Source of the DNA: Erigeron canadensis
Lineage: Eukaryota; Streptophyta; Magnoliopsida; Asterales; Asteraceae
Reading direction: 5' to 3'
Length of the DNA: 64,000 nucleotides
Assembly (NCBI RefSeq): GCF_010389155.1
Contig: NC_057762.1
Span: forward strand, 3,893,513 to 3,957,512
This document shows, one piece after another, positions 5,507-56,100 of this stretch (the stretch's first letter is position 1; each line of letters starts with the position of its first letter). Both the position numbers and the translations under genes were made by a program. The notes beneath the pieces are model-generated. The model saw nothing but the letters and a program-made list of their open reading frames with translations, had not been told where the DNA came from and ran no database searches.

Positions 5507-7404
5507 TTAATCAACAGAAATTTCATTTCTTGTTTTTGAAATGGCACACATTGCTTGATGTACTTGAAGCATGCTCAATTCTCTATCATTTTGTACTCGG
5601 ATGCAGTTCTTGGCTATTCTAAGCGTGCCATAAATTTCCTCATCAAATCCTTGTTCCGCCAAGCATCCATCAATCACATACAATTCCGTACTAGAGTTGA
5701 TCCATGTCGATGGTTCTCTACCAGAAATCAATTCAAGCAACACAATCCCAAAGCTATAAACGTCCTCCTTGTAAGGACCGAGACTAAATTCTGGAACAAC
5801 AAAATTGCAACAACTTGATGGGATGCCGCTTGTATTCATCAAGATTTTTGAATTGCCAAAATTTGATATCTTGGGCTCAAACTCATCATCTAGTAATATA
5901 CAGTTTGAGTTGATTTTGCAATGGGCTACCCGGAGCACATTGTTGTGATGTAGCCACGCAAGTCCTCGTGCTATTCCTATGGCGATCCTAAACCGTAGAG
6001 TCCATCCCATCTTCTTACCTTCCACTTGTGGCATACAATGTAGCCATTGATGGAGGGTTCGATTGCTCATGTATTTATATACTAGAAATTTCTTCTCCAT
6101 TTCAAAGCAAAAAGCTAGAAGTGGTACTAAGTTTGTGTGCCGCAGTCTTCCTAAAATTTCTATTTCTAATAAGAACTCCTTTTTAAAGCTCTCAAACTTA
6201 TGGAGCCTTTTGACTGCAAGCAACAAACCGTTTGATAACATAGCCTTGTACATGAGTCCCATGTTTCCACGGCCAATCACTTTTTCAATGTCAAAATTAT
6301 TGGTTGCCATTTCAATCTCCTCCAAACTCATTCGGCGTATGTACTTTTCCATGGCAGTTACCTGTTTGATAATCATAATTACATATTAGTATTTATTCTT
6401 CAACTTGACACATGGCGCAAACACTTTATATACAAAAAAATAGATGGATTTTCAGAGAGGATGCGGAATTTAATTACCTTGCTCTCTTCGCTTCCACTAT
6501 CCTCAGTTAACTGGATTTGAAAGATTTCTTCAATCAGACGCTGCCTCCTACCCATTAGTATTTTCTTGGTAATGAAATGATAAGTAATCACGAGGCTTAT
6601 AGACAGCCTAGAGGCACCTCTTGGAAAAAAGAAGAACATCAGCAAAGTACTTAAGATAGCAGGAGTAAAACCGACTTGAAACCCAAAAATAAAGGGATCT
6701 ATGTGCCGTTCAAAATTAATAATAATATTAAAGGGATTTGTATGGCCTTGATCATTCTTGCAGGGACTCAACGGACCTCCACAAAGTCCTAAGTTGTTTA
6801 TATAACTACCTGCAGCAGCGGTGGCATTGTAAAAATAGGGTACAGGTCCTGATAATCTATTGTTTGCGACACTAAAATCGCTGAGGCGATTAAGTCCCCC
6901 CAATTGTGGTGGGATTTCGCCAGTTAGGTGATTGTTATTAAGCTTCAGAATATTAATGAAGCTGCAATTAGCAAGGCTAGGTGGAATTGGACCGGAGAAA
7001 CTGTTGTATGACAGATCTAGAGAGGAGACAAAAGGTATAACATCTGTTAAATTGGTGGGAAGGGGTCCTTGGAGTTGGTTGCGAGAGAGGTCTAACGTTG
7101 TTAGGCTGGTGCAGTTTTTTAAGCCCAATGGAAATGCTCCTCTCAGTCCTATGTCTGATAGTCGAAGATTCATAACCCTGCTCTCATCAATGTGCCAGCA
7201 TTCGACACCAGTAAAGCGACATATGAAACCTTCAGCCTCATTACTAAAATCCCACGATACTAACACGCTATAAGTATCTTGGAGCGATTTCTTGATCGAT
7301 CTCAGGCAATCGATGTCTGACTGAACGGCATTGCTTAGAGCAAAGCAAGCTAGTATGAGTAGCATGTGCAAGTATAAACTAGGAATAATACATATTCTGC
7401 TCAT
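5507..7404 (-). CDS. BIR1-like LRR receptor-like pseudokinase
   Basis: Two exons, complement(5507..6361, 6478..7404), joined in phase 0 by a short GT-AG intron; 593 residues, against about 620 for Arabidopsis BIR1. The start is the ATG at 7404, which gives a signal peptide (residues 1-27). The ectodomain has the family's opening DIDCLRSIKKSLQD, a Cys-capped N-terminal region (FICRFTGVECWH) and about four to five LRRs, followed by GLCGGPLSPC and a membrane segment near residues 245-285. The intracellular kinase keeps the VKRL lysine (residue 360) and a glycine-rich loop GRGNMG (339-344). HRD is replaced by HCK and DFG by NFG, so catalysis is unlikely. BIR proteins bind BAK1/SERK co-receptors and restrain immune signalling; that role is inferred from family membership. 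All exon sequence is open, so the gene looks functional as a pseudokinase. Confidence 0.88.
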
Positions 7405-7476
7405 TATGATAATATATATGTAGCTAGCTATTGTTGTTGTATAGTGAATATGTAATACTTGTATATAACTATACAA

Positions 7477-14161: not shown

Positions 14162-16636
14162 CTACCTCCATGGTGGTTGGTGGTGTTTGTTAACTGGAAA
14201 AAACTCAAACCCTGAATGCGGTTCAGGGCGTTTCCCACCAACAATCGAGCTAGAAGGAGCTTGTTGTAGTGAGTTATTTTCCCGCATGTATTGTTCATCC
14301 ACATTTTGAGGAAAAAACTGTCTCAAACCTACAATAGTCTCCCGGTTTCCACCATTGATTGTTAAACCAGTGTTAATATCAAAGTTATGATATGGGTATG
14401 AGGGTCCAACCCCATTTGAGCTGGAGGATGCACCGGGTGCAGCCATGTTCATCATGAAAGGTGATGGTGGTTGTTGAGAGGCCATCAATTGAGGTACAAA
14501 AGAGCCTCCTCTATATGGCACGGGCTTCCCATCTGGTGATAATGCATACATAGGCATGGGGTAGACATACATACCGTTATGGTGCCCGTAAAAAGATGGA
14601 TTAGGATTACCATACTGCATTGAAGATTCTACAGGTCGCCCCAAATTGAAATCCATTGTGGGTTGGAAAGAACTTTTTCCCTTCACCTCGACTTTCTTAC
14701 CAAAAATAGAAATAACAGAATGATCTACAGCAGCATCATTGGGGAAAATGGGCTGACTGTTTATATTCAAATCAATGTTTCTTCTTGAATGTTGTTTTGA
14801 TGACGATGAAGATGGACTTAGCCACCCATTTGGGTCATTTCCCGTACTGTTGAGATCCAACTGGGGCCGTTCTGGAAACCTACGTACAGAAGATTCCCCA
14901 GCAGAAGGAAGATCTGATACAATTACCATTTTATCCTCACTACCATCAGCAACGTTCAGATCAATATCAAGAAAATCCAACCGTTTCTTAAAATTGTTGT
15001 GGGTTTCACTGGTGGAAGCCAGTTCTTTCAATCCTGAACCCTCAAAGTGAATAGCATCAGGTAACTGGGAAGCTACAGCTGCCCGGGGAGGAGAAACAAT
15101 CGAGATCGTGGATGAGACGGGATTAATAGGGTTATCAACTTCTTCGGAACAAACTTCTTCGTTCAAATCAAACCCCGAGAACCCTCTTCCAGCACCGGGC
15201 TCAGATTCTTGAGCCACCTCAGAAATTTGAGAAACTAGGGTTTCTGCTTCTTTCACAGGTTCAGGTTTCGGTCCAGAGGTGACCTTATCTGAGACGCTGA
15301 CAAGTAGACTTTGACTTTCTTGACCGTTTTTAGATTCCGGGGTTGACTCTCTTGACCGTTTCACAGTTCCACTGTTTAACATTTTCTCAGAAACTAGGAT
15401 TTCTGCATCTTTCACAGGTTCAGGTTTGAGTCCAGATGTGACCTTATCTGAGCCGCCAACAGGTAGACTTTGACTTTCTTGACCGTTTTTAGATTCCGGG
15501 GTTGACTCTCTTGACCGTTTCACAGTTCCACTGTCTGACATTTTCTCAGAGGTGCTGCAACTTCTTTCTCGGGAATCAACTTCTAGTTCCACCTCATTAG
15601 CAACTTGCCTAGCAATATCGAGTGGGTCTATCATGCCAAAGTCTAGTTTCATATCTGATGTCTTGCTATCCATTGACAACTTAAATAATCTTGAACCGCT
15701 TTCTAAATTTTCATTACTCTGAACACCATCATCTTCATTTACGCCTTCCGTGTCACTTTCTGAACTTGAAGACGCTTTTGGGCTCTCGCCATTATCCACC
15801 ATATCTTCATCTTTGTCACTTAACACATCAGTCTCTCTAGAAGACTCTAAACAGTTATTAACAGCAGCACTTGGAGCTATTTCTGCTGAAGGACTAGGTA
15901 AAGCCAAAATTTCAACCAAGTCTCCTTTATCATGAAAACTAATCTCTTTTTCATTTTCATCTTTAACATCCGATTTCTCAACACCTTCTGATATAGAATT
16001 CTGGACTTTGAATTTAATCAAAAGATTTTCATCCTCAGCTGTTAATTTACAAGATGGATCAGCATGATCCGGAATATCCTGATTTGTTGTTGCCAAGTCC
16101 ACAATATCATCTGGTTGTCTGGTCACCGAACTATCAGCACCAATTGACTCGAGATTTTTGACATCTAATAAACTTTCATCATCCTTTTCTTGAATTAGCA
16201 TCCAACTATCACTTAACGATTTAGCTTTTTCACGAACCATAGAACTACTATGAGAGCCAAGCTCCTCGACTGTGTTCCTTATTTCAGAAGAAAAAGAACT
16301 CTCATTATCTAACCGCAGCCTCTCAAGTGCTCTCAACAATAAAATAAATAATTCTTCCAAAGAGCCATTTTCATCATCATTTTGAAGATTCTGGGCATCC
16401 TTGAGCCACTTATTAATTAAAGAAAGTCCATCTAAATTGATAAACTGATCAAGACAGTTTTTGTTTTCAGTAGCTGCAACGATAGATGCGACGCTTGACA
16501 AATGTCGGATTGCTTCACCGTTGTTGTCCACAGAGTCTTTCTTACTTTGAATAACGCTGATGAACTCGTTAACTCTATCTAGAGTTGTAAGCCCATCTTT
16601 TAAGTCGGTAGAAGTAAAGAAGTCCTCGAGAGTCAT
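14162..16636 (-). CDS. TFIIS N-terminal (LW) domain protein with EAR motifs
   Basis: A single coding exon of 824 residues. Residues 1-150 form the TFIIS N-terminal/LW helical domain seen in Mediator 26, elongin A and IWS1-type factors, beginning MTLEDFFTSTDLKDGLTTLD and containing SVASIVAATENKNCLDQFI. The long remainder is low-complexity and acidic, then carries DLN-type EAR motifs at about residues 488 (FDLNEE), 559 (DIDLNV), 594 (LDLNST) and 624 (IDLNIN), with variants near 664 and 755. EAR motifs recruit TOPLESS co-repressors, so a chromatin or transcription role is inferred; it resembles Arabidopsis At4g24200-type proteins. Residues about 363-468 are a near-perfect 53-residue tandem duplication. 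A 5' UTR intron (about 16647-19039) probably separates the start from its promoter. Confidence 0.88.
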   Translation of the reverse strand: MTLEDFFTSTDLKDGLTTLDRVNEFISVIQSKKDSVDNNGEAIRHLSSVASIVAATENKNCLDQFINLDGLSLINKWLKDAQNLQNDDENGSLEELFILLLRALERLRLDNESSFSSEIRNTVEELGSHSSSMVREKAKSLSDSWMLIQEKDDESLLDVKNLESIGADSSVTRQPDDIVDLATTNQDIPDHADPSCKLTAEDENLLIKFKVQNSISEGVEKSDVKDENEKEISFHDKGDLVEILALPSPSAEIAPSAAVNNCLESSRETDVLSDKDEDMVDNGESPKASSSSESDTEGVNEDDGVQSNENLESGSRLFKLSMDSKTSDMKLDFGMIDPLDIARQVANEVELEVDSRERSCSTSEKMSDSGTVKRSRESTPESKNGQESQSLPVGGSDKVTSGLKPEPVKDAEILVSEKMLNSGTVKRSRESTPESKNGQESQSLLVSVSDKVTSGPKPEPVKEAETLVSQISEVAQESEPGAGRGFSGFDLNEEVCSEEVDNPINPVSSTISIVSPPRAAVASQLPDAIHFEGSGLKELASTSETHNNFKKRLDFLDIDLNVADGSEDKMVIVSDLPSAGESSVRRFPERPQLDLNSTGNDPNGWLSPSSSSSKQHSRRNIDLNINSQPIFPNDAAVDHSVISIFGKKVEVKGKSSFQPTMDFNLGRPVESSMQYGNPNPSFYGHHNGMYVYPMPMYALSPDGKPVPYRGGSFVPQLMASQQPPSPFMMNMAAPGASSSSNGVGPSYPYHNFDINTGLTINGGNRETIVGLRQFFPQNVDEQYMRENNSLQQAPSSSIVGGKRPEPHSGFEFFPVNKHHQPPWR
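15231..15548 (-). repeat. 159-bp in-frame tandem duplication inside the TFIIS-LW gene
   Basis: Two units, 15231-15389 and 15390-15548, are nearly identical. Both encode the sequence around TVKRSRESTPESKNGQESQS and share about 90 percent or more of their bases. The period is exactly 53 codons, so the reading frame is kept. The high identity points to a recent event. Confidence 0.9.
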
Positions 16637-27599: not shown

Positions 27600-30500
27600 C
27601 TAAGACGATGTTCTCCACTGCAACTCCACCTGAAGTGTACCATTCCTCGAGTCTGTTAAGTTGTACTTCCCGTTGATTCTCTTGTTGCTCACTACATCCG
27701 CGAGTTGTATGTCCACATAACCCAGTGTTTCCTATCGGAAAAAAAAAATAATGGAAGGTTTAAATTTTATTATTTATGTACAATACCAAATTTGACATGT
27801 TTCTAGCCTATTGACCCATTACCTAACCTGTGCAACTCACCCATTTTGCCACCTCCATTTTTTTTTTTGATATATAATAGATTAACTCGTGGTACCTTGG
27901 GATGTATTAGACCCATCCTTGAAGATGTGCTAACGACTTCAAAGTGTATCCTATCGTTCGTAGGTGGTTCTTCCAAGATAAATGCAAATTCTTCTCCCCA
28001 TATAGGATCACGATTTTTCTTCACAAGCTGCACACAACACAAACCATAAGAGTTAAGACACGCAGTTTGACTGTTCTCTATACGTTTCATTATAAGGACA
28101 AATTGGGCAAAAATTGCTACGACAGGGGAACACTATACGCTTTAACCCCACAAAAGAATTTAACAATCAAAAGCCTTTCATTTACGGGGATTTGCATAAG
28201 TAAAAATGGCATGTGCTTTGCAGTTCCACCAAAAAGAAAGCTAGTTTTCATTTGTTACATTAATTAATGATGGCTGTTACATCATCAATTTGATTGAGCA
28301 TCCAACTCAGATCCCCTTAAAAGGAACTTACGAAATTTTTACTAAAACTTTGATAGTTTTAATTAATAAATGTCAACAACCACGTGTGGCAATTGTTAAA
28401 AGACAGATTACCTACTTGATTTTTTAATTTATATATGGTTTTGTAGTGTTAATAACATCCCTATTACTTTTTCTCTACGCAGTAATGACATTGAAAACGT
28501 CCATCATTAAATGGCTTGGCTTGACACTCCACTGCCTTAATTATCACTTTACCCCGGTTGATTAACTCCAGCTGAATTCATATGTGAAGGATATCATCCA
28601 AACAATTGTTTATGCTGTTTGGTGGGATATACGGGGCAATGTTTTGAAAACCGATATTTTAGTCATACCGGTGTATTACTGGAAATACCGGCCGGTATGA
28701 CTATTTAATTTATTTTATTTTCAACCATAAAAAGTGTACTGTTACAATTTATCAAAAATAGTTAAAATACAATTATAATCCACTCAAAAATAATACCATA
28801 TAGTTTCGTTTCATAACTAAATATAAGTTTTAAAGTTCACAAATAACAAAAAAATAACATTAAAGACTTAATTTGGAGATTCAGAACTGAGATGGTATTC
28901 AAACAGTACTCCACGATAAAAGACGCCTAGTTCTGGTTACATTCGACTATTAACAACTCATTTTAGTGGAACCGGTACAGAAATAAGAAGATTATCTCTT
29001 GGGACAACAAGACATTATTAAGTGGTTAATGCAATTGTTTTGGTTGTTTTTTGGGATCATCATGCCGTTCTATATACACTATTGGAAGCTCTATTAATGT
29101 TGCTGCTACTTATGTTTCTCTAAGTGATTGCTTGATGCCACTCTAACTCTCATGGTTTTTAAGTTTGTATCGTAGTGCCACGGGACTTGTTGGGGATTGC
29201 ATAAAAAATTGTCACGAGGTGAAAACCGGTGGCGGGGTTTTTCTCATGTCCAGCCGGTAATTGACATGAGTTTTTTTCATCCCTTTTATAATCTTAGAAG
29301 TTAAAATTCTGAGATGAATCAAGATTATGTAAATGTTGTGATTCTGGATTTCTTAGTACTTTTGGTCTCTAGTATCTTGCTAGGTGACTTGTTTTATTAT
29401 TATACATATTCTCTGCCATAGTAGTAGTTTAATCATTATTCGAAGTGAGAATACGAAGAGATTACGTACCTTTGTTTTCCTCTCTTCCCCTCTGAAAAGC
29501 ACACAGACATATGGATTCGTATGGTGTTTCCCTTCAAGATCATTGGCGTGAAGGATTTTAACAACTAGCAAACCTCCACCTACAGGGGTTCCGTCAGGTG
29601 CCATTTCGATCGCATTTTCGTCTTCATCATCAGTCGGTACTTCATCAATTGTGAATGGCTTGTACGACAATTCAATTATGATTTGGCCACGAGACTTCTC
29701 GTTTTGGGCGTCATATGGGTCCATGTTTTTTAGGAGCTCAAGAGTCATAACTTTTTCTTCATCTGGTGTAACCTCTTTTAGTGGAACAACATTCATTCCC
29801 ATCTTCTCATGTTTGCCCACCTACACCACATTTGGTGACAACAAAAATCACAATTCATATGTCTCTTACATGTTGTAAACTGGGCACAACGGGTAACGGG
29901 TTAACACTTTTTTTTTTTTTTTTGTAAACTTATTTGAACATCTGGTGTGTTAAATTAAGTATGAGTTGAAATTGACACCTATAAATTTTCTTAAGGAGAC
30001 CAAGCTAAAAACCATAAGCATTTAAATACAACTTCGACAACTTTAGAGCCGTTCAACATATTTGATATTGACCCATCAAAGATAGAATACATCTAAATAG
30101 ATTCGTTTTTTGGAAAATTGGTCGAAATTATAGCCTCTAAGAAATTGTACCTGTTCCCAGTTATAAACAACAATCATAAGAGCTTGCGATCCAGGATCCT
30201 TGACAACAAAATTAAATTCTTCATTCCACTCGGGATTCAAGTTTTTGAATTTGACAGTAGTTTTCTTAGATGGAAGTACATTCTTAGTAAGTTTCAGTTG
30301 TACATATGGATCAGAAGCACCAAAAATATTCTTCTCTTCAAGTTTCATTGCCCTCACAACCTTCACATGTAGAATTCCAACGGGCCTTTTCATGGCGGCT
30401 CTGCCAAATTAAACATTGATAATAACATGTGAATAACTAGAATATGACCAATTACAATTTGCTACTTATATGAGAAATACCAAGAAAAGTTCCAGTGAAA

Positions 30501-31078
30501 CATATTATATTTCAAGAATAAACTTGTTAGAGGTTTTATATAGAGAAGAAAATGATTTTTAGAAAATGGCCTCAAGTAATTTGTGACCTGAATGATAAGC
30601 TAGGAAGTATTTGGATGTGCGTTTTGAAAGTTATATTTGATTTTGAGCAACCAGAATCAGAACGGTTGTATAACATGTGTGAAATCGAGTTTGGACGTGC
30701 TTTTGCATTTTGAAATTGCAATACCTCTTTTCAGTATTGTCGGATCAATTTTGGAAACAAAAATCCAACCAATTCAAATTAGATATCAGAGATCAACTAA
30801 AACTTACTTTGCAGGGTCGAGTACAGGTTCCGCAAGTGTTTTAGGCCACAAATACGTACTTGCAACCTGAGTATTATTAATTCCCTGAGCACAAAAATGT
30901 GGGTGAGAACATACAAGTCCAATCTCCATTCTAAACTTGGAATAACTCTTTTTTTTTTCTTTCTAAATTTGGAATAACTTTAACTCAGCTGTACATACCC
31001 GGTCAGATCTATACAAGCCAGGGACAGACATGAGGTCGGCCCCTAGCAGTTTTAGCCCAAAATCTACATGAAGTATAA
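27600..31078 (-). CDS. 5'-truncated synaptotagmin copy (C2A-C2B half), possible 3' part of a kinase fusion
   Basis: Exons on the complement: 30808..30884, 30151..30400, 29470..29820, 27896..28027, 27600..27731; the frame is open throughout, with GT-AG sites. They match the last five exons of the complete gene at 34356-41570 in phase, and in length except for one extra codon in the 30151..30400 exon. They encode the linker ending LDPAK, C2A (LHVKVVRAMKL...FGASDPYV...) and C2B (GLLVVKILHANDLEGKHHTNPYV...). One more exon (30999..about 31078, FGLKLLGADLMSVPGLYR) remains, but its CAG acceptor is gone, so it should be skipped. The transmembrane anchor and SMP lipid-transfer domain are absent. C2A has VYNWEQ where the complete copy has VYDWEQ, losing one likely calcium ligand. 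The 1.4 kb intron 28028-29469 carries about 1 kb not in the sister copy. It is either a pseudogene or the C-terminal half of a chimera with the kinase exon upstream. Confidence 0.75.
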
Positions 31079-31773
31079 TACGGATGGTTCCATAGAAAGA
31101 TTCAAGCTCAGATTATTGGTTAGAGGTTCTAGTCAAAAGGATCGGTAGAACTTCAAACATACATTTTCTCGTGTTACTAAGTTAACTATATTTAGAGTTT
31201 TAGCTGACATTGCCACTGCAAAGAGTTTTAATCTCCATAAGGATATACCAAGGCTAAACGTCGCCAGTTTTAAAAGCTAAGCAAGTCTCTTTATGGTCTA
31301 AACAAGATTCCAGGTAGTGGAATCGTAGCATGAGTATTCCCTGTTTGTTTAAGCCAATGATGCTAAATTTACAGCTGCTTTAGTTGATCACAGGAGATTG
31401 TGAACCTGATATTATTGAGCTTAAGTAGGCTTTAGATATATGCTAAGTTTACTAAGTTTTCAAAATTGGGGTTAGCTATATACTTAATGAAAATTGAGAC
31501 TTGCATAACTAAAATTGTACTTACCTTAAGTAAATGAAGTACATTATTCACTTGTTAAAAGATTGATGGTCTCATGGTAGCTAAAACTGTTTCTTCCACT
31601 TTGCGTCAATATTTAAAGTTGTCACTTCACAAAGGACCTTTTCTTTCTAATCCAAATCATATAGAAGGTTGGTTAAGAGATTGTTTTTACTTACTATGAC
31701 TGAAACGGATATTACTTACAGTCTTCAACATCTTAGTTTGTTTCTAGTCCATTACACCATCATATGCAAGCTG

Positions 31774-32805
31774 CTATTGAAAGGGTTTGTATGTAAATGT
31801 TTTATAAGTATAAACTTGTTCCATACAGGCTGATGTATAATACATATAGATACAAGTATTTGAACTTACAATCATTTCTTCAAGTTTCTGTAACACCAAA
31901 CCCATGGAGGGTCGTTGTTCCCGATTATTGTGCAAGCACTCAATTGCAATCGTTGAAAATGTATTCAAGGAATCTGGATCCACTTCAATCTTCAGACATG
32001 GATCAATAATCTCGTGCAGCCTTCCTTCTTTGTAATAGCGTTTGGCTAGGTGGGCTAGAAATCCTTGTTCGCTATTCACATTTACGAAGCTCAACGTCCC
32101 ACATAAGACTTCAAACATTACGACTCCAAATGAATAAACATCTGACTCTTTAGTTAGTATCCCAGTATGCAGATATTCCGGATCACAATAACCATGCGTG
32201 CCAGAAACATTAGTAATAATAAAACTGACATTTTCATGTGCGCGACTTATCAAGGAAAGACCAAAATCCGCAATCATAGCTTTCCAATCATGACTTAAAA
32301 GAATATTTGCACTCTTTATGTCCCTGTGGATGACTCTACGGTCTTGCGCAACATGGTTATGCAAATAGTCCAAACCGCGGGCTGCATCAATGCATATATT
32401 GATCCTTTGCAACCAAGTTAGTTGAACGGTTGATTCACCCTTGGTTAGGTATTTATCGAGGCTTCCGCGCTCTGCATATTCATAAACTAGCATCTTTTCA
32501 CCGTTTTCTTCGCAGAAACCAAGCAGGGAGACTAAGTTTGGATGTTTAAAACGAGATAGCAACTCAATCTCCCTTAAAAACTCCTTCAACCCTTGACCGG
32601 AAATGTTACTATCTAGTCGCTTTATCGCAACTGAGGTAAGTTTATTAGAAAGTAAGAGTTCCCCTTTGTAAACCAAGCCATAACCGCCCTTCCCAATGAC
32701 TGTTGTGAAACTTTTGGTGGCATCTTGTATATCTTGAAAAGGTATACAAAGGTGCTCTGACTCTTTAATAAAATGGGTTATCTTGGAATTGGAAGAGGAA
32801 GACAT
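31774..32805 (-). CDS. Receptor-like cytoplasmic Ser/Thr kinase
   Basis: The start is the ATG at 32805. The kinase domain (about residues 30-312) has every key element: GKGGYG loop (38-43), VAIKRL lysine (62), HRDIKSANILL with HRD at 160-162, DFG at 180-182, GTHGYCDPEY activation segment, SDVYSFGVVMFEVL and RPSMGLVLQKLEEM. There is no signal peptide or membrane segment. The arginine-aspartate pair predicts an active kinase. It resembles the CrRLK1L-like cytoplasmic kinases expanded in Asteraceae, which often carry C-terminal partner domains. A strong donor ATT|GTAAGT at 31870/31869 lies in phase 0 right after the domain; reading through it gives an unstructured 31-residue tail and a stop at 31774. 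I favour splicing, with exon 31870..32805, into the synaptotagmin exons downstream. Confidence 0.85.
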   Translation of the reverse strand: MSSSSNSKITHFIKESEHLCIPFQDIQDATKSFTTVIGKGGYGLVYKGELLLSNKLTSVAIKRLDSNISGQGLKEFLREIELLSRFKHPNLVSLLGFCEENGEKMLVYEYAERGSLDKYLTKGESTVQLTWLQRINICIDAARGLDYLHNHVAQDRRVIHRDIKSANILLSHDWKAMIADFGLSLISRAHENVSFIITNVSGTHGYCDPEYLHTGILTKESDVYSFGVVMFEVLCGTLSFVNVNSEQGFLAHLAKRYYKEGRLHEIIDPCLKIEVDPDSLNTFSTIAIECLHNNREQRPSMGLVLQKLEEMIVSSNTCIYMYYTSACMEQVYTYKTFTYKPFQ

Positions 32806-34355
32806 GAAGAGAAACAGAAGGGGGAAAGGTTTTTTTTTTTTTTTCTGTCGAGCTAGAGATCAATATGTACAGACTGATTTCAACGTCACGTAGATCCAAG
32901 AAAATGTATTGTTAGTTTATTACTAAAAAAGTCAACTCCATCACAAATTCCAGTGCGGAGCCACTTTGGACTGAGAGTGAGCCAAGGCCCATCCTAAGTA
33001 TACTAGTGACATTCATATTTTATACATAGTCTGTATTTTGATCTATCTTATCATCTTGGCCCATCCCATATAAGAAGTTTCAATTTTCAAAAACCAAGTC
33101 AGTCAAACGTTTGGTCGCCTTATATCTATAAATGTTTTTTTTTTTAAAGGAAATGTTACAAGTCACGAAAACTAAAAGGTAAAAACAACCTATGTAATGT
33201 ACCTATATACTTTCAAATATAAAGTAGATCGTCTTCCATGAAACAAAAGTTAAAAACAATTGTGTTTTACAATAATGATTGGTTTATACTCATTATATAA
33301 GACTAAAAGCATCAAAATAAGCTATAATATGTATATTTCTTAGACCGCTTTTACTTGTTTTCTGTAGATAATAACATCATGTTTTTCTTCAAAAATAAAT
33401 TGTTGACTTGTTAACTGTTTTCATTCTTTGTAGAGGTTGTTATAATGATTTTGTTCAACTACAATCATGTTATTGGCTTGGTATTGTTTGGAGTTCTATT
33501 ACTCGATATATATTCTATTGTCGTTATTTGTTAGCGATATGTCTGATATTTATTAACTAAATGATGTTGCGGTATCACCATTGTTCGGCTAGTGTTCACT
33601 AAAAAACGAGAATTTGGCCCTTCCTAAGTCAAATTTCTGCCTTCGTCACCGACAAATTCTACACATTTTCCGCGTTAAAAATATAAAGATACTGACTAAA
33701 CAGCCTAGACTGGCTTTGCAATATTTATTTATTATTTATTTTCTCTAACCACCAAAACATACACATGTACATGTTACTTCAATAATGAAACCCTACTTCA
33801 TTTATCCATTTTGTTATACTTATGTATCATTTAAAAAGTGTGTATTATAAGGATGAAATGGTTGATATTCATACACTACAATAACTACATACAAATGCTC
33901 TAAGTTCCATACAGTTTTATGACATCTATAGCATTGTATGATGGTAGTATGATAAGAGCCACTAGGATCCGGGAACCGTCTAACACTCAGTCGTCATGCA
34001 CAAGATGGTGGTTTATATGGAGCCAGTGACTTGGCACATTATGTACAGTGTTGAATCTTTCAAAACAAGATTTCACATGAACACATTAGTTGCGGCGTCT
34101 AATAATAATGAGAGTCAAAGCTCTAATGAATCTATAAACTTTTTTTTTTGTCTTCCTAATAGTGTAACAGGAAAAAAAACGGCCCATTTATTTGCACAAC
34201 TTACACACCAGTAGAACTTGTATTCAAAAGGCAACCTGTTTAGTGACATCAAACATTTCACTTAGTTGTATTCGAGTTTATCAGTAAGATAGTAGGATGT
34301 TGAAGATCATGTGATTAGATTCTTCTGACGTTCTTCAAAATAGAATACCCACAAT
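32806..34355. other. Region between complete synaptotagmin gene and kinase
   Basis: It contains the presumed kinase promoter and leader next to 32806 and the 3' flank of the complete synaptotagmin gene. From about 33840 to 34020 it is similar to 25960-26160, showing that the 3' flank was co-duplicated. No other gene is visible. Confidence 0.6.
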
Positions 34356-37300
34356 CTAAGACGATGTTCTCCACTGCAACTCCACCTGAAGTGTACCATT
34401 CCTCGAGTCAATTAGGTTGTACTTCCCATTGATTCTCTTGTTGCTCACTACATCTGCGAGTTGAATGTCCACATAACCGAGTGTTTCCTACCAAAAAAAT
34501 ATAATGCAAGGTTTAAATTTTATTGTACATGTAGAAAACACCACAACAACAAAAATGGATGTAAAAGTGAGAGTGTTAACCCAACCCTCTGCAGCCAATA
34601 CCAAATCTGACAAGTTTCTAGTCTATTGAGTACTGACCCATTACTTAACCTGTGCAATCCACCCATTTTCCCAGCTCTGTTTTTTGATACATTAAACTGG
34701 TCAAAATAGATTAATAAGTGGTACCTTGGGATGAATTAGACCCATCCTTGAAGATGTGCTAACGACTTCAAAATGTATCCTATCATTTGTGGGTGGTTCT
34801 TCCAAGGTAAATGCAAATTCTTCTCCCCATCTCGGATCACGATTTTTCTTCACAGGCTGCATACAACACAAACCATGAGTTAAGACGTGCAATTTAATTG
34901 TTCTCCATACATTCCATTAGAAGGACTAAGTAATAACTCCTGACACATTGTTCCCCTCATTATGGACAGATTGAGCACACATAGCTACGCCAAGGGAAAT
35001 TTATATGTTTTGACCCCACAAAAGAATTCAACAATCAAAAGCCTTTCATTTATGCGGATTTGCACATGTAAAATGAAATGTGCTTTGCAGTTCCACCAAA
35101 AAGAAAACTAGTTTTCATGTGTTACATCAATGACAAGTCATAAAAGTCAACATGGTCGTGTTACGAGCACGATGGAGGTTATGTCATCATTTTGATTGAG
35201 TAACTAACTCAGATCCCCTTAAAAGGAACTTATGAAAGTTTTAATTAAACTTTGAATAGTTAATCATAGTTTGAAGTGAGAATACGAAGAGACTACATAC
35301 CTTTGTTTTTTTCTCTTCCCCTCTGAAAAGCACACGAACAGATGGATTCGTATGGTGTTTCCCTTCAAGATCTTCGGCTTGATGGATTATAACAACAAGC
35401 AAACCTCCACCTACAGGGGTTCCTTCAGGTGCCTTTTCGATTGCATTTTCACCTTCACCATCAGCCGGTACTTCATCAGTTGTGAATGGCTTGTACAGCA
35501 ATTCGATCATGATTTGGCCTCGAGACTTCTCGTTTTGGGTGTCATTTGGGTCCATATTCTTTAGGAGCTCAAGAGTCATAACTTTTTCTTCATCTGCTGT
35601 GACCTCTTTTAGTGGAACAACATTCATCCCCATCTTATCATGTTTCCCCACCTACACCACATTAGGTGACAACAAAAAACACAATTTATAAAAAACAATA
35701 GAACCCAAGTTGACCCTGGGTTGAAATTGCCACCTATAACTGTTTTTCTAAGAAGACAGATGTTAAATTGGTATGTTGAGGAGTTGTCACTTGTCAGGCT
35801 CGGGCAAAAGGTCAATGTGTTTTTGGGCCAAAATTATGTGTGTCAGGTTGGGTTACATACGTCAACAATTGAGTTCTTTTATCTTGAGATTTAAAATGAT
35901 GAGCCGATTCAAGTTATGTTTTATTTCTAACACCTAAAACAAGTCATTCTTAGGAATAAGCTAAAACTGAAATGAGCAAATGAGTCAAAGAGTAATTTTA
36001 ACGTGAAGCTTTAGTAATCTAAATTAACCTACTAATTATTTAGAGTAACACTTCAAAATTCAGGACAAACGGTGCTTCAGATTGACCTTCACCAAAGTTT
36101 ACTCATTTTGAGCTGATCTTGTTGTCCAACCCGGAACCCCGCCAGAGGCCCATTCTGCCACCTTTATGGAAAACCATAAGCGTTTTTAAATACAAATTAG
36201 GCAACTTCAGAGCCGTTCCTATTTGATATTGTACCATCCAAGATAAAAATACATTTAAATAGATCCAATTTTAGAAAATGGGTCTAAATTGCAGCCTCTA
36301 AGAAAATGTACCTGTTCCCAGTCATACACAACAATCTCAAGAGCTTGTGATTCTGGATCTTTGACAATCAATTTAAATTCTTCATTCCACTCGGGATTCA
36401 AGTTTTTGTGTTTGACAGAAGTTTTCTTATGTGGAAGTTTTTCCTCAGTAAGTTTCAGTTTTACGTAAGGATCAGAAGCACCCAAAAGATCCTTCTTTTT
36501 AAGTTTCATTGCCTTCACAATCTTCACATGTAGCATTCCAACGGGCCTTTTCATCGCTCTGCCAAATTAAACATTGATGTTAACATGTTGATAACTAGAA
36601 TATGGACAATCACATTATGCTGCATGAGAAATAACAAGAAAAGTTCTATTGAAACATTATATTCCAAGAATAAACTTGTCAGGGGTTTTATATAGTGAAG
36701 TAAAAGATTTTTAGAAAATGGCCTCAATTAAACTGTGATCTCAATGATAAGCTAGGAAGTGTTTGGATGTTTTATCTGAAAGTTATCTTTGATTATGAGC
36801 AACCAGAGTCAGATAAGTGGTTGTATAACGGGGTGTTAAATTAAAATAGAGTTTGGACGTGCTTTTGCATTTTGAGCATGCTATAGCTCTTTTGAGTTCT
36901 GTCAGATCAGTTTTGGAAACATGGATCCAAACACCCTTTTAATACTGTTCAAATTAGATGGCAATATCGCATTAATCAGATATCAACTAATACTTACTTT
37001 GCAGGGTCGAGTACGGGTACCACAAGTGTTTTAGGCCACAGGTACATATTTGCAACCTGAGTTTTAATAAGTTCCTGAGCACAAAAATGTGGGTGAAATC
37101 ATAAGAGTTCAATATCCATACTAAATTTGGAATAACTTGAACTCAGCTGTACATACCTGAACGAATCTATACAAGCCAGGGACAGACATGACGTCGGCTC
37201 CGAGCAGTTTTAGCCCAAAATCAACATGAGGCTGGAAGTTTAAAGAAAATTAGATACAAATTGCTAAATAGAGAAAACTAGAAGTACTGGCCTACTTTCA

Positions 37301-53100: not shown

Positions 53101-56100
53101 ACCCTGAGTTTCAATAACCTGCCAACAAAGTATTCCAATCAAAAGATGACCAAAACTCTTTGGAAATAGATATCTTCGTTACAGCATCCACGAAAAAAGT
53201 ACAACACTTCATTTCAAAAAAATACAGTAATGTACATAACGAGTACCTTCCCAATAGCACTGCTCAATTTTGCAAAAGCTTCTACTTGGAGAAACTCTGG
53301 TAGGACCTGCAATAGCATATAACTACTTGAACAAATGCAAAACTCTGACAAATATAACCACTTCTCATTAAAAAAAAAACTCACTTCTGGACTTGAAGCA
53401 GCATAACTTGATAGTCTCTCCATTAGTTGGGATAGTACTGTCTTGATATCAACCGTAGGCTGAGATTTCAATAGATTATATACATTCAAAACCTTTAGCA
53501 CATACAAAGACACATATATAGAAACTACTCTTCTAGGGTTTATATAAACACCATATTCCAGATCAAGCATATATAAGCCAAGGGGTAACATTAATGAAAA
53601 AAGATATACAGATGAAGATAAGAAGTCTCATGCACCTGGAGCTGGGGACAAGCTCCTAGAAGGGTTTCAAGTGTCTGTAAGTGATACTCATCTGGAAACA
53701 CTTGAATCAGGCAGTCCATCAGATAATACTGTGCAAGCTCATCCTTACAGTTGACAACCTATCACAGAGAAATTGTAAACACCTGAAAAGTTAAAATACT
53801 GTACTCTAAGATTTTTGGAGGTAATAAAGGGACTTGTGGAATGGTGGATTGGGGAATGGGTCAAATATATTTGGGTTAAAACTCTCAATTTTAGCACGTC
53901 AGAATGGGCATGGGTGGAAAAAAAATGTTACAATTAATAAGCTACATCGTTGAAAGAACTTTTTAAGGAATATGTACAGATTAAAAGCAGAGTTTGGGAG
54001 ACATTCAACCCATTATGGGTCACATATGTTTGGGTTGAAACTCTCAACTTAGCACATCAGATTGGGCATGGGCGAACAAAATTGTTAGAATTAATAATCT
54101 AAATCCTTGAATAAAACTTTTTAAAGAAGATGTATAGATTAAAAGCGCAGTTTGAGAGACTTTCAACCCGTTTGACCCATTCACGCTATTTGTCCTGTTC
54201 CCACGTCTAACTTTTTTATTTTTACTCATTTGAGATAAAACATACCCAAATTGATTTGTTCAAAAGTTATTTGGTTGGATTTACCACCTCTAGCTAGCTA
54301 TACTTGAAAAATGGTAATACTGGAACAACGAAAAAAACTAGACCTGCTCCAAGATTCTCGGTAGAACAGTCTCTTTGTACAAATCAAGGTCAATACCCTC
54401 TATCTGACTAAGAACATGAAGATTTTTACCGACCTGAAATTTCAAAGACATGTTCAAAAACATTAATTTGACCACTGGACTCTACTTAAACCAGATCAAT
54501 GTGTTCCATGGTGTTATGGTGTTGATATTACTAGATCACGCAGCTCGTTCCTCTCCTTCTCCATTTTCTCCCGCACCCTGGCAGGTCCCTGCAGACCAGA
54601 AAGCCCAAATGAAGGCCTCAACTCAGGGTCACCAAAATCAATGTAGTACAAGCACTATTAATCCTGCATTATAAAAAATCATGCTCTCATGACTCATTAC
54701 AACATGTCATGCAAGTATGCCAAGCATGCCACAACATGACATGATAAAAGCCAATAAAGATACGAACCCACAAACCTGATGCTCCATCCGAACCCAGAGT
54801 TTATTCATCTCTGAAAAATTTTGCAACACAAACTCTACAGCATCCATGACAGTATCACCATCTCTATAAAACAACAAGAAATAATTACCTCATTGTCTCA
54901 AACAAATTAAAACCAGCTATGCAACAACTGAAATGAGCAGGATGTAGACTTCGACAGCTTCAGCTGAAAATCATAATGTTGGCCAAACTAGTTCCAGGTA
55001 ATTGACATGCAGTTGCACTAGCATATATGAACATGATAGAAACAAAAAAATGGCAATTATGACACCTTTACTTGTAATTGGGTCTATTTGGATTGTGGTT
55101 TATCTCGAACTGGTCAAAAATTTTAATTTTTTTAGCTGAAACTGGAACGGGCCATCTAAGTTGAATGGGTCGACATTAGAATGTAGCCCATTAGTTAACC
55201 ACAACCTCCTGTTACACTTTATGCAAATATTTAGATCACTTTCGTAATAATATTGTTTTAGCGAATAAAAATTGTAAATACAACTAGTGAACATTTATTT
55301 GCTTTAAAATTATAAAAAAAAAAATGTGTTTATGGGTAATAAGAAACAGATGTAGGGGAAGCGAAATGAAAACGAGAGCAAAGCAATTTGAGAAATTTTA
55401 CTCATTTGATTATAAATGTTAATTACAAAATGAAGAATAAAAACTATTATAGACTAACTAACGGCTATTTCTAACCATCTAATTTCTATCAAACTCCTTA
55501 AGTTACACTTTGTAGTTTGTACCCTTCTAAAGGTACAACTTGTCACTTAATATACAAACTATATACATTTCATAAGTAACCTAATCAGGTTTGAGTGTTT
55601 GACACAGAATTAATAAAAACCACTGTATATATGAGTGATATGACCATAGCATGTATCTGGTCAATTCTTTCATGAATTAGTGACATGGGTTCTCCTAGAG
55701 AAAAAAATTAAGATAATTAGGTGCAAACAAGAACATTTAAAATAGAGTAAAGAGCAACATAATTACAGCACAAAATTAAGAGCTCAACACTACTACAAAA
55801 TTAGACATGAATTTAATTGCATGAAAACCCACTTACATATACATCGAAAGTAAGCACAAAACTTTGCAAGAAAAACAACTTCCTTACCCTTCATATTCAG
55901 ACCCAATATCAGGAAGCTTATCTCTACTAATTTGTGCAAGGTAACTCCTAAGGAAGAGCCCACGAAGGGGATGCTGAACTGCACGACACATCTCAACAAG
56001 GTCTTTAAGAACATCTTTAGCAGGAGCCTCCTTTGATTTTATGTACACAGACCCTACGGTACATAAGAGATACCTATAAATCAAAGAGACAAATATCAAG

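Follow-up and report, generated by a model that had tools for sequence, protein, structure and literature searches.

A predicted kinase–C2A–C2B fusion gene next to its intact synaptotagmin parent in Erigeron canadensis, and related Asteraceae kinases with exchanged C-terminal partners

Main finding

A stretch of 64,000 nucleotides of Erigeron canadensis DNA (NCBI RefSeq assembly GCF_010389155.1, contig NC_057762.1, positions 3,893,513 to 3,957,512), referred to below as the window, carries on its minus strand a FERONIA/Pto-like kinase exon followed by five exons of a 5'-truncated synaptotagmin-2-like (SYT2-like) gene. The two parts are probably spliced into a single fusion gene encoding a kinase with the C2A and C2B domains of synaptotagmin (SYT). 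The product is interpreted here as an Asteraceae kinase fusion receptor with an integrated decoy; to this interpretation, decoy role included, a probability of about 45% was assigned.

Structure of the fusion gene

The fusion model is composed of six exons:

32805-31870 (-): kinase exon, FERONIA/Pto-like, 936 nt (312 codons), uninterrupted, ending in phase 0 at the donor GTAAGT
30884-30808 (-): fusion exon 2, corresponding to SYT exon 8, with its native phase-0 acceptor
30400-30151 (-): fusion exon 3, C2A
29820-29470 (-): fusion exon 4, end of C2A and start of C2B
28027-27896 (-): fusion exon 5, C2B
27731-27600 (-): fusion exon 6, end of C2B and native stop

The spliced model comprises 1878 nt, that is 626 codons including the native synaptotagmin stop (625 amino acids), and all five introns are of the GT-AG type, with acceptor phases 0, 2, 0, 0 and 0. 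A sequence-only reading of the window had predicted the intact kinase exon with its phase-0 end, the phase-0 acceptor before 30884 and the open 1878-base model; exon and acceptor were confirmed, and the model proved right base for base. It agrees fully (100% over 100%) with P0001, a protein of 625 amino acids predicted in the public record for Erigeron canadensis under the name 'probable receptor-like protein kinase At5g20050'. One kinase (from residue 33) and two C2 stretches were detected by Pfam, so that a kinase and at least one non-kinase domain, the definition of a plant kinase fusion, stand together in one predicted protein. With kinase and C2 as its only Pfam matches, the fusion showed neither the malectin-like ectodomain nor the transmembrane segment of CrRLK1L kinases, nor a transmembrane region after the C2 domains as in Pm4. 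The SMP domain (PF17047, which we take to be SMP), listed for SYT matches such as P0089, was likewise not found by Pfam.

The same sequence, ATTTTTGTGCTCAG, precedes exon 8 in the fusion copy and in the intact copy of the SYT gene. From the kinase donor to exon 8, 17 acceptor-like sites (at least 60% pyrimidine) were counted, exon 8's own included, and the pyrimidine score of 0.75 at 30884 was the highest of these, tied with one other. A chance AG before 31063 would lead to a stop after three codons. Two other transcript ends are real competitors to the fusion splice:

31773-31744 (-): possible alternative terminal exon (AATAG/CAG...), reading QLAYDGVMD-stop (nine residues), a rival to the fusion
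32805-31774 (-): kinase open reading frame without use of the donor (read-through), 343 amino acids, stop at 31774

Origin of the C2 part

The 3' half of the SYT2-like gene is duplicated in tandem, and the kinase exon, lying between the two SYT copies, replaces the 5' half of the duplicate. The class of the partner was taken from the names of close matches. The following features bear on the duplication:

41570-34356 (-): intact parent SYT2-like gene, 12 exons, 539 amino acids; exons set from homology to P0089
31078-30999 (-): remnant of SYT exon 7, skipped in the fusion; homologous to the intact copy up to 31071
26411-26289 (-): decayed third copy of the final SYT exon, with in-frame stops; its flank resembles 33788-34609

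When the window was compared with itself, 37229-36170 was found repeated at 31071-30008, and the later exons were found repeated down to 27485. The remnant near 30999-31078 is exon 7 of the intact copy (37231-37157), and the homology of the copies stops within it, at 31071 versus 37229 (exon start 37231). Homology thus ends at the first bases of the exon, so the acceptor and all that lies upstream of it were not carried over into the truncated copy, in agreement with the earlier prediction that this exon had lost its acceptor. The start codon of the kinase lies 1.55 kb downstream of the end of the intact parent. Fusion and intact copy share 260 of 312 aligned C2A-C2B residues (83%), and the fusion protein ends in the same WRTSS as SYT. 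Mobile-element flanks were considered for the arrival of the kinase and rejected: around it (30900-34350), nine pairs of inverted repeats (14-24 nt, 78-93%) were found, none of them resembling element ends.

Kinase–C2 fusions in other Asteraceae

The sequence-only reading had suggested a search of related Asteraceae for kinases joined to C2A-C2B. Such proteins were found, at least 11 of them among the matches listed, P0001 included (Erigeron 3, Tanacetum 3, Artemisia 2, Deinandra 1, Rutidosis 1, Bidens 1); the ten besides P0001 carry other kinases. The protein searches covered the best 120 of 2579, 7852 and 6983 matches in order of whole-protein score, a ranking that gives tandem kinases an advantage. 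Candidates were limited to 0.55-1.75 times the query length (about 344-1094 amino acids), which places shorter unfused kinases outside the census.

A tree of the C2 parts was built from the 11 fusions, eight SYTs and the intact copy of the window, the tails being cut by hand and those of P0125 and P0126 shortened. A single origin of all 11 fusions was rejected on the kinases (p 3.8e-6) and on the C2 parts (p 0.014), the latter to be taken with caution on account of long branches in the C2 tree. One clade of C2 parts for the ten other fusions was not rejected (p 0.155), and for this reason at least two origins, and not more, are claimed: the kinase–C2 fusion appears from these trees to have arisen at least twice. 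The C2 part of P0001 grouped with the intact SYT of the window (87/97, short of the tool's star). P0008 is the mirror case, its tail being 62% and its kinase 51% alike to those of P0001; in both proteins the synaptotagmin sequence starts at the residue with which SYT exon 8 begins in the window. In the P0117-type fusions, the match at this entry point is weaker. Among the Tanacetum and Artemisia models some are suspect: P0004 contains a nearly identical kinase twice, and P0126 matches PF13966, presumably a retroelement.

Selection on the C2 exons

Fusion and intact copy were compared over 312 codons (90.1% identical, dS 0.19, dN 0.084). Pairwise dN/dS, another check suggested with the original prediction, was 0.43 (bootstrap 0.28-0.72), and the selection signals as a whole are mixed. 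When Rutidosis P0089 was used to assign amino-acid changes to branches, 33 were placed on the fusion branch and seven on the intact branch, 12 being left unassigned; at columns invariant in seven other SYTs, 21 changes fell to the fusion and three to the intact copy. The fusion copy has thus changed fast. Its coding C2 exons hold one in-frame indel in 942 nt, as against 26 indel events in the four introns over 1256 aligned bases (P about 6e-4, one-branch Poisson; indels counted as gap runs in MAFFT alignments, half assumed per branch). Neutral simulation at a branch length of 0.097 (half dS) yielded on average 58-63 changes and 2.6-3.4 stops, versus 33-45 changes and no stop observed. The drift test on amino acids hinges on branch length, being clear at 0.097, weak at 0.08 and gone at 0.06, and the chance absence of stops (P 0.03-0.07 at 0.097) is weak evidence alone. 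Free drift of the C2 exons as a pure pseudogene is disfavoured by the indel contrast together with the simulation. Gene conversion, with the intact copy as donor, is another process that could keep the exons alike.

These data bear on two other explanations. It is somewhat unlikely that the locus consists of two neighbours, an ordinary kinase of 321 or 343 amino acids and a decaying partial C2 duplicate, chained by the predictors with phases that fit by chance. The in-frame stop at 31774, the plausible short terminal exon, the decayed third copy adjoining the truncated one, the fast change of the fusion C2 and an amino-acid count that fits drift at a branch of 0.06 would agree with it, whereas the C2 exons retain frame, splice sites and stop with few indels, and Asteraceae kinase–C2 proteins with other kinases exist, the SYT part of P0008 starting at the very residue of exon 8. 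A transcribed but young and neutral chimera without function is improbable: the upper bootstrap limit of dN/dS and an absence of stops that is not rare under neutrality would allow it, but indels are fewer than the neutral expectation and the fusion seems to have formed more than once. The chimeric structure proposed by the sequence-only reading is therefore supported by the identical public model, the native acceptor that both copies have in common, the scarcity of indels in the C2 exons relative to the introns and the kinase–C2 proteins elsewhere in Asteraceae; the immune role proposed with it stays conjectural.

Kinase relatives with exchanged partners

The closest kinases among the matches listed were P0056, P0201 and P0203 (E. 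canadensis) and P0074 (lgn contig, 1705 nt). In a kinase tree of 41 proteins (74 kinase domains) picked by hand from 205 fetched, these four and P0001 formed one clade (100/99) with pairwise kinase identities of 71-80%. Best local alignments scored 1036-1299 for the kinases versus 29-53 for the tails, in which Pfam detected SYT C2A-C2B, EXO70, myosin DIL, CDPK with EF-hands, and EF-hand. The N-termini of P0056, P0201 and P0074 begin as in P0001, and the common sequence of the clade stops at KLE(EM), where the exon of the window ends (two to three residues earlier in P0056). Only the C-terminal domain of the partner was detected by Pfam in P0201 and P0056, as expected of captured 3' parts. The best solved relatives of the kinase were FERONIA and, next, the chains 2qkw (which we take to be Pto) and 3hgk (titled Pto).

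Less closely related kinases of this type from Asteraceae end in formin FH2 (P0049), glutaredoxin (P0136), PP2 (P0051) or a 64-residue HSP70 piece. Two such kinases are followed by a RIN4-type AvrRpt-cleavage (NOI) motif (E 4e-16) in P0030 of Cynara cardunculus, a kinase–RIN4 fusion that merits separate study, and by a TIR domain (E 6e-43) in P0141 of Mikania micrantha. The proteins of this wider family are predictions, and some of the models look faulty.

A combinatorial receptor family in Asteraceae is tentatively proposed, at somewhat less than even odds. The soluble FERONIA/Pto-like kinase exon would be a portable 5' module, and its phase-0 donor would on repeated occasions have captured 3' portions of pathogen-targeted genes, making baits of blunted activity. 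With similar reserve, the captured genes may be synaptotagmin, EXO70 and myosin XI and, more distantly, formin, RIN4, TIR and others, a dicot parallel to the nucleotide-binding leucine-rich repeat receptors (NLRs) with integrated domains.

Residues and predicted structure

Five ligand-like positions of C2A, chosen by analogy with C2 domains in general, were compared; their alignment is uncertain in the most diverged rows. DDDED was read in eight of nine ordinary SYT rows (rice P0003 being the sole deviation) and in none of the 11 fusion rows. The fusion of the window reads N-D-N-E-E, and the first ligand Asp is missing in all 11 (once as a gap). VA-K and HRD were present in all 13 kinases checked, nine of the 11 fusions among them (P0004 and P0126 lay outside this check); DFG was found in 11 and DLG in two, and the glycine-loop pattern in 12. 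P0001 itself keeps the catalytic motifs VAIK, HRD and DFG.

The best solved structure for the C2 part was 7as6 (presumably from Arabidopsis), with a chain named Synaptotagmin-1. An AlphaFold model from a nine-row alignment (mean pLDDT 72.6, pTM 0.49, linker 314-344 below 50) is unreliable on the relative placement of domains; the C2 stretches were modelled as beta-rich domains. The best 50 of at least 2000 Foldseek matches were kinases by title, FERONIA first and Pto included, with no C2 structure among these 50.

The retention of two C2 stretches with a beta-rich model would also suit a real fusion in which C2A-C2B serves, with no decoy role, as a calcium-independent anchor placing the kinase at a membrane or contact site, and a requirement of C2 domains for the kinase activity of Pm4 has been suggested (PMC12830362). 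Siblings with other tails would, however, require other anchors, and the C2A ligand pattern is changed in every fusion row; this explanation is considered unlikely.

Comparison with known systems

Kinase fusion proteins are already known, among them disease-resistance proteins of wheat, and the clade of Asteraceae kinases with exchanged partners is the new element. Such proteins are described as unique to Triticeae (PMC10260397) and as specific to cereals (PMC12830362); the integrated-decoy model has been proposed for them, and a kinase–vWA fusion is reported at least three times in grasses (PMC10260399, PMC10260397). The Triticeae fusions (Sr43, Lr9/WTK6-vWA, Pm4, Snn3, Yr36) likewise join a kinase to an unrelated domain, but with other kinases and partners, whereas here a FERONIA/Pto-like kinase of Asteraceae has relatives with different partners. 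Pm4 is alike in combining kinase and C2 domains; it has transmembrane regions, whereas synaptotagmin C2A-C2B is present here, with nothing detected by Pfam after C2B. The domains integrated in NLRs overlap with the present partners (EXO70, RIN4, PP2 and glutaredoxin are included; PMC4759884), but the carrier here is a kinase. Relative to plant synaptotagmin-2 (anchor-SMP-C2A-C2B), the fusion shares C2A-C2B, has the kinase instead of the SMP part and differs at the C2A ligand positions.

Soluble CrRLK1L-1-like genes of sunflower with one or two kinases, candidates for broomrape resistance (OrDeb2), are also FERONIA-like kinases without ectodomain in Compositae; their PANTHER family counts 420 sunflower, 245 lettuce and 20 Arabidopsis genes (PMC8866362). 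The available part of that paper mentions no fusion to other domains. No description of kinase fusions with exchanged partners in Asteraceae was found in the available literature, although a 2025 plant-kingdom survey of tandem kinases (cited in PMC12830362) may list some.

Interpretation

In the proposed mechanism, the kinase exon, which has its own start and a phase-0 donor, would be spliced to exon 8 of the 5'-truncated tandem copy of synaptotagmin-2, and the kinase–C2A–C2B product would act as an intracellular kinase fusion receptor. C2A-C2B with altered calcium-ligand positions would be bait for a pathogen-derived or viral protein directed at synaptotagmin at contacts of the endoplasmic reticulum with the plasma membrane or at plasmodesmata. 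Binding to the bait would shift the activity of the attached RD kinase and so give a defence signal, perhaps via an NLR; other baits would be borne by the same kinase lineage. Kept catalytic motifs, a partner with its fold but altered residues, and changing partners are what the integrated-decoy model predicts, and at sequence level the putative bait derives from a host protein (its parent lies in the window) and has altered biochemical residues.

Several points weigh against this integrated-decoy interpretation. Effector binding, the NLR partner and the immune role are steps that we infer. The P0001 model is a prediction and no independent proof of splicing, it stands alone in its cluster, without an lgn source, and the short terminal exon with its acceptor at 31773 competes with the fusion. 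The mixed selection signals, the low weight of the missing stops and the fit of the amino-acid count to free drift on a fusion branch of 0.06, all described above, belong here as well. The loss of calcium ligands also fits relaxed constraint. By eye, P0126 reads HSD for HRD and has no VAIK stretch. Within the kinase clade, the tails of P0203 and P0074 both hold EF-hands, though aligning over only 27 residues, and P0203, in which a complete CDPK kinase and EF-hand part is retained, may represent two genes chained together.

Other features of the window

5507-7476 (-): an LRR open reading frame (358 amino acids) and a kinase open reading frame (289 amino acids), separated by 23 nt and jointly resembling an LRR receptor kinase; with HCKIN in place of the usual HRDIK, the kinase may be a pseudokinase
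14162-16636 (-): open reading frame of 824 amino acids with no Pfam match and a 162-nt repeat at 15230-15550; its N-terminus may resemble a TFIIS-N helical bundle
53214-53591 (-): open reading frame of 125 amino acids with a weak Vps35 match below the Pfam cut-off

Significance

The window displays the intact parent, the truncated tandem copy and the kinase side by side. If the interpretation is true, the daisy family would have built its own set of kinase fusions from another kinase, with partners swapped at one exon end. The partners would then point to host proteins that are likely targets of pathogens, and the fusions would be resistance-gene candidates for sunflower, lettuce and chicory.

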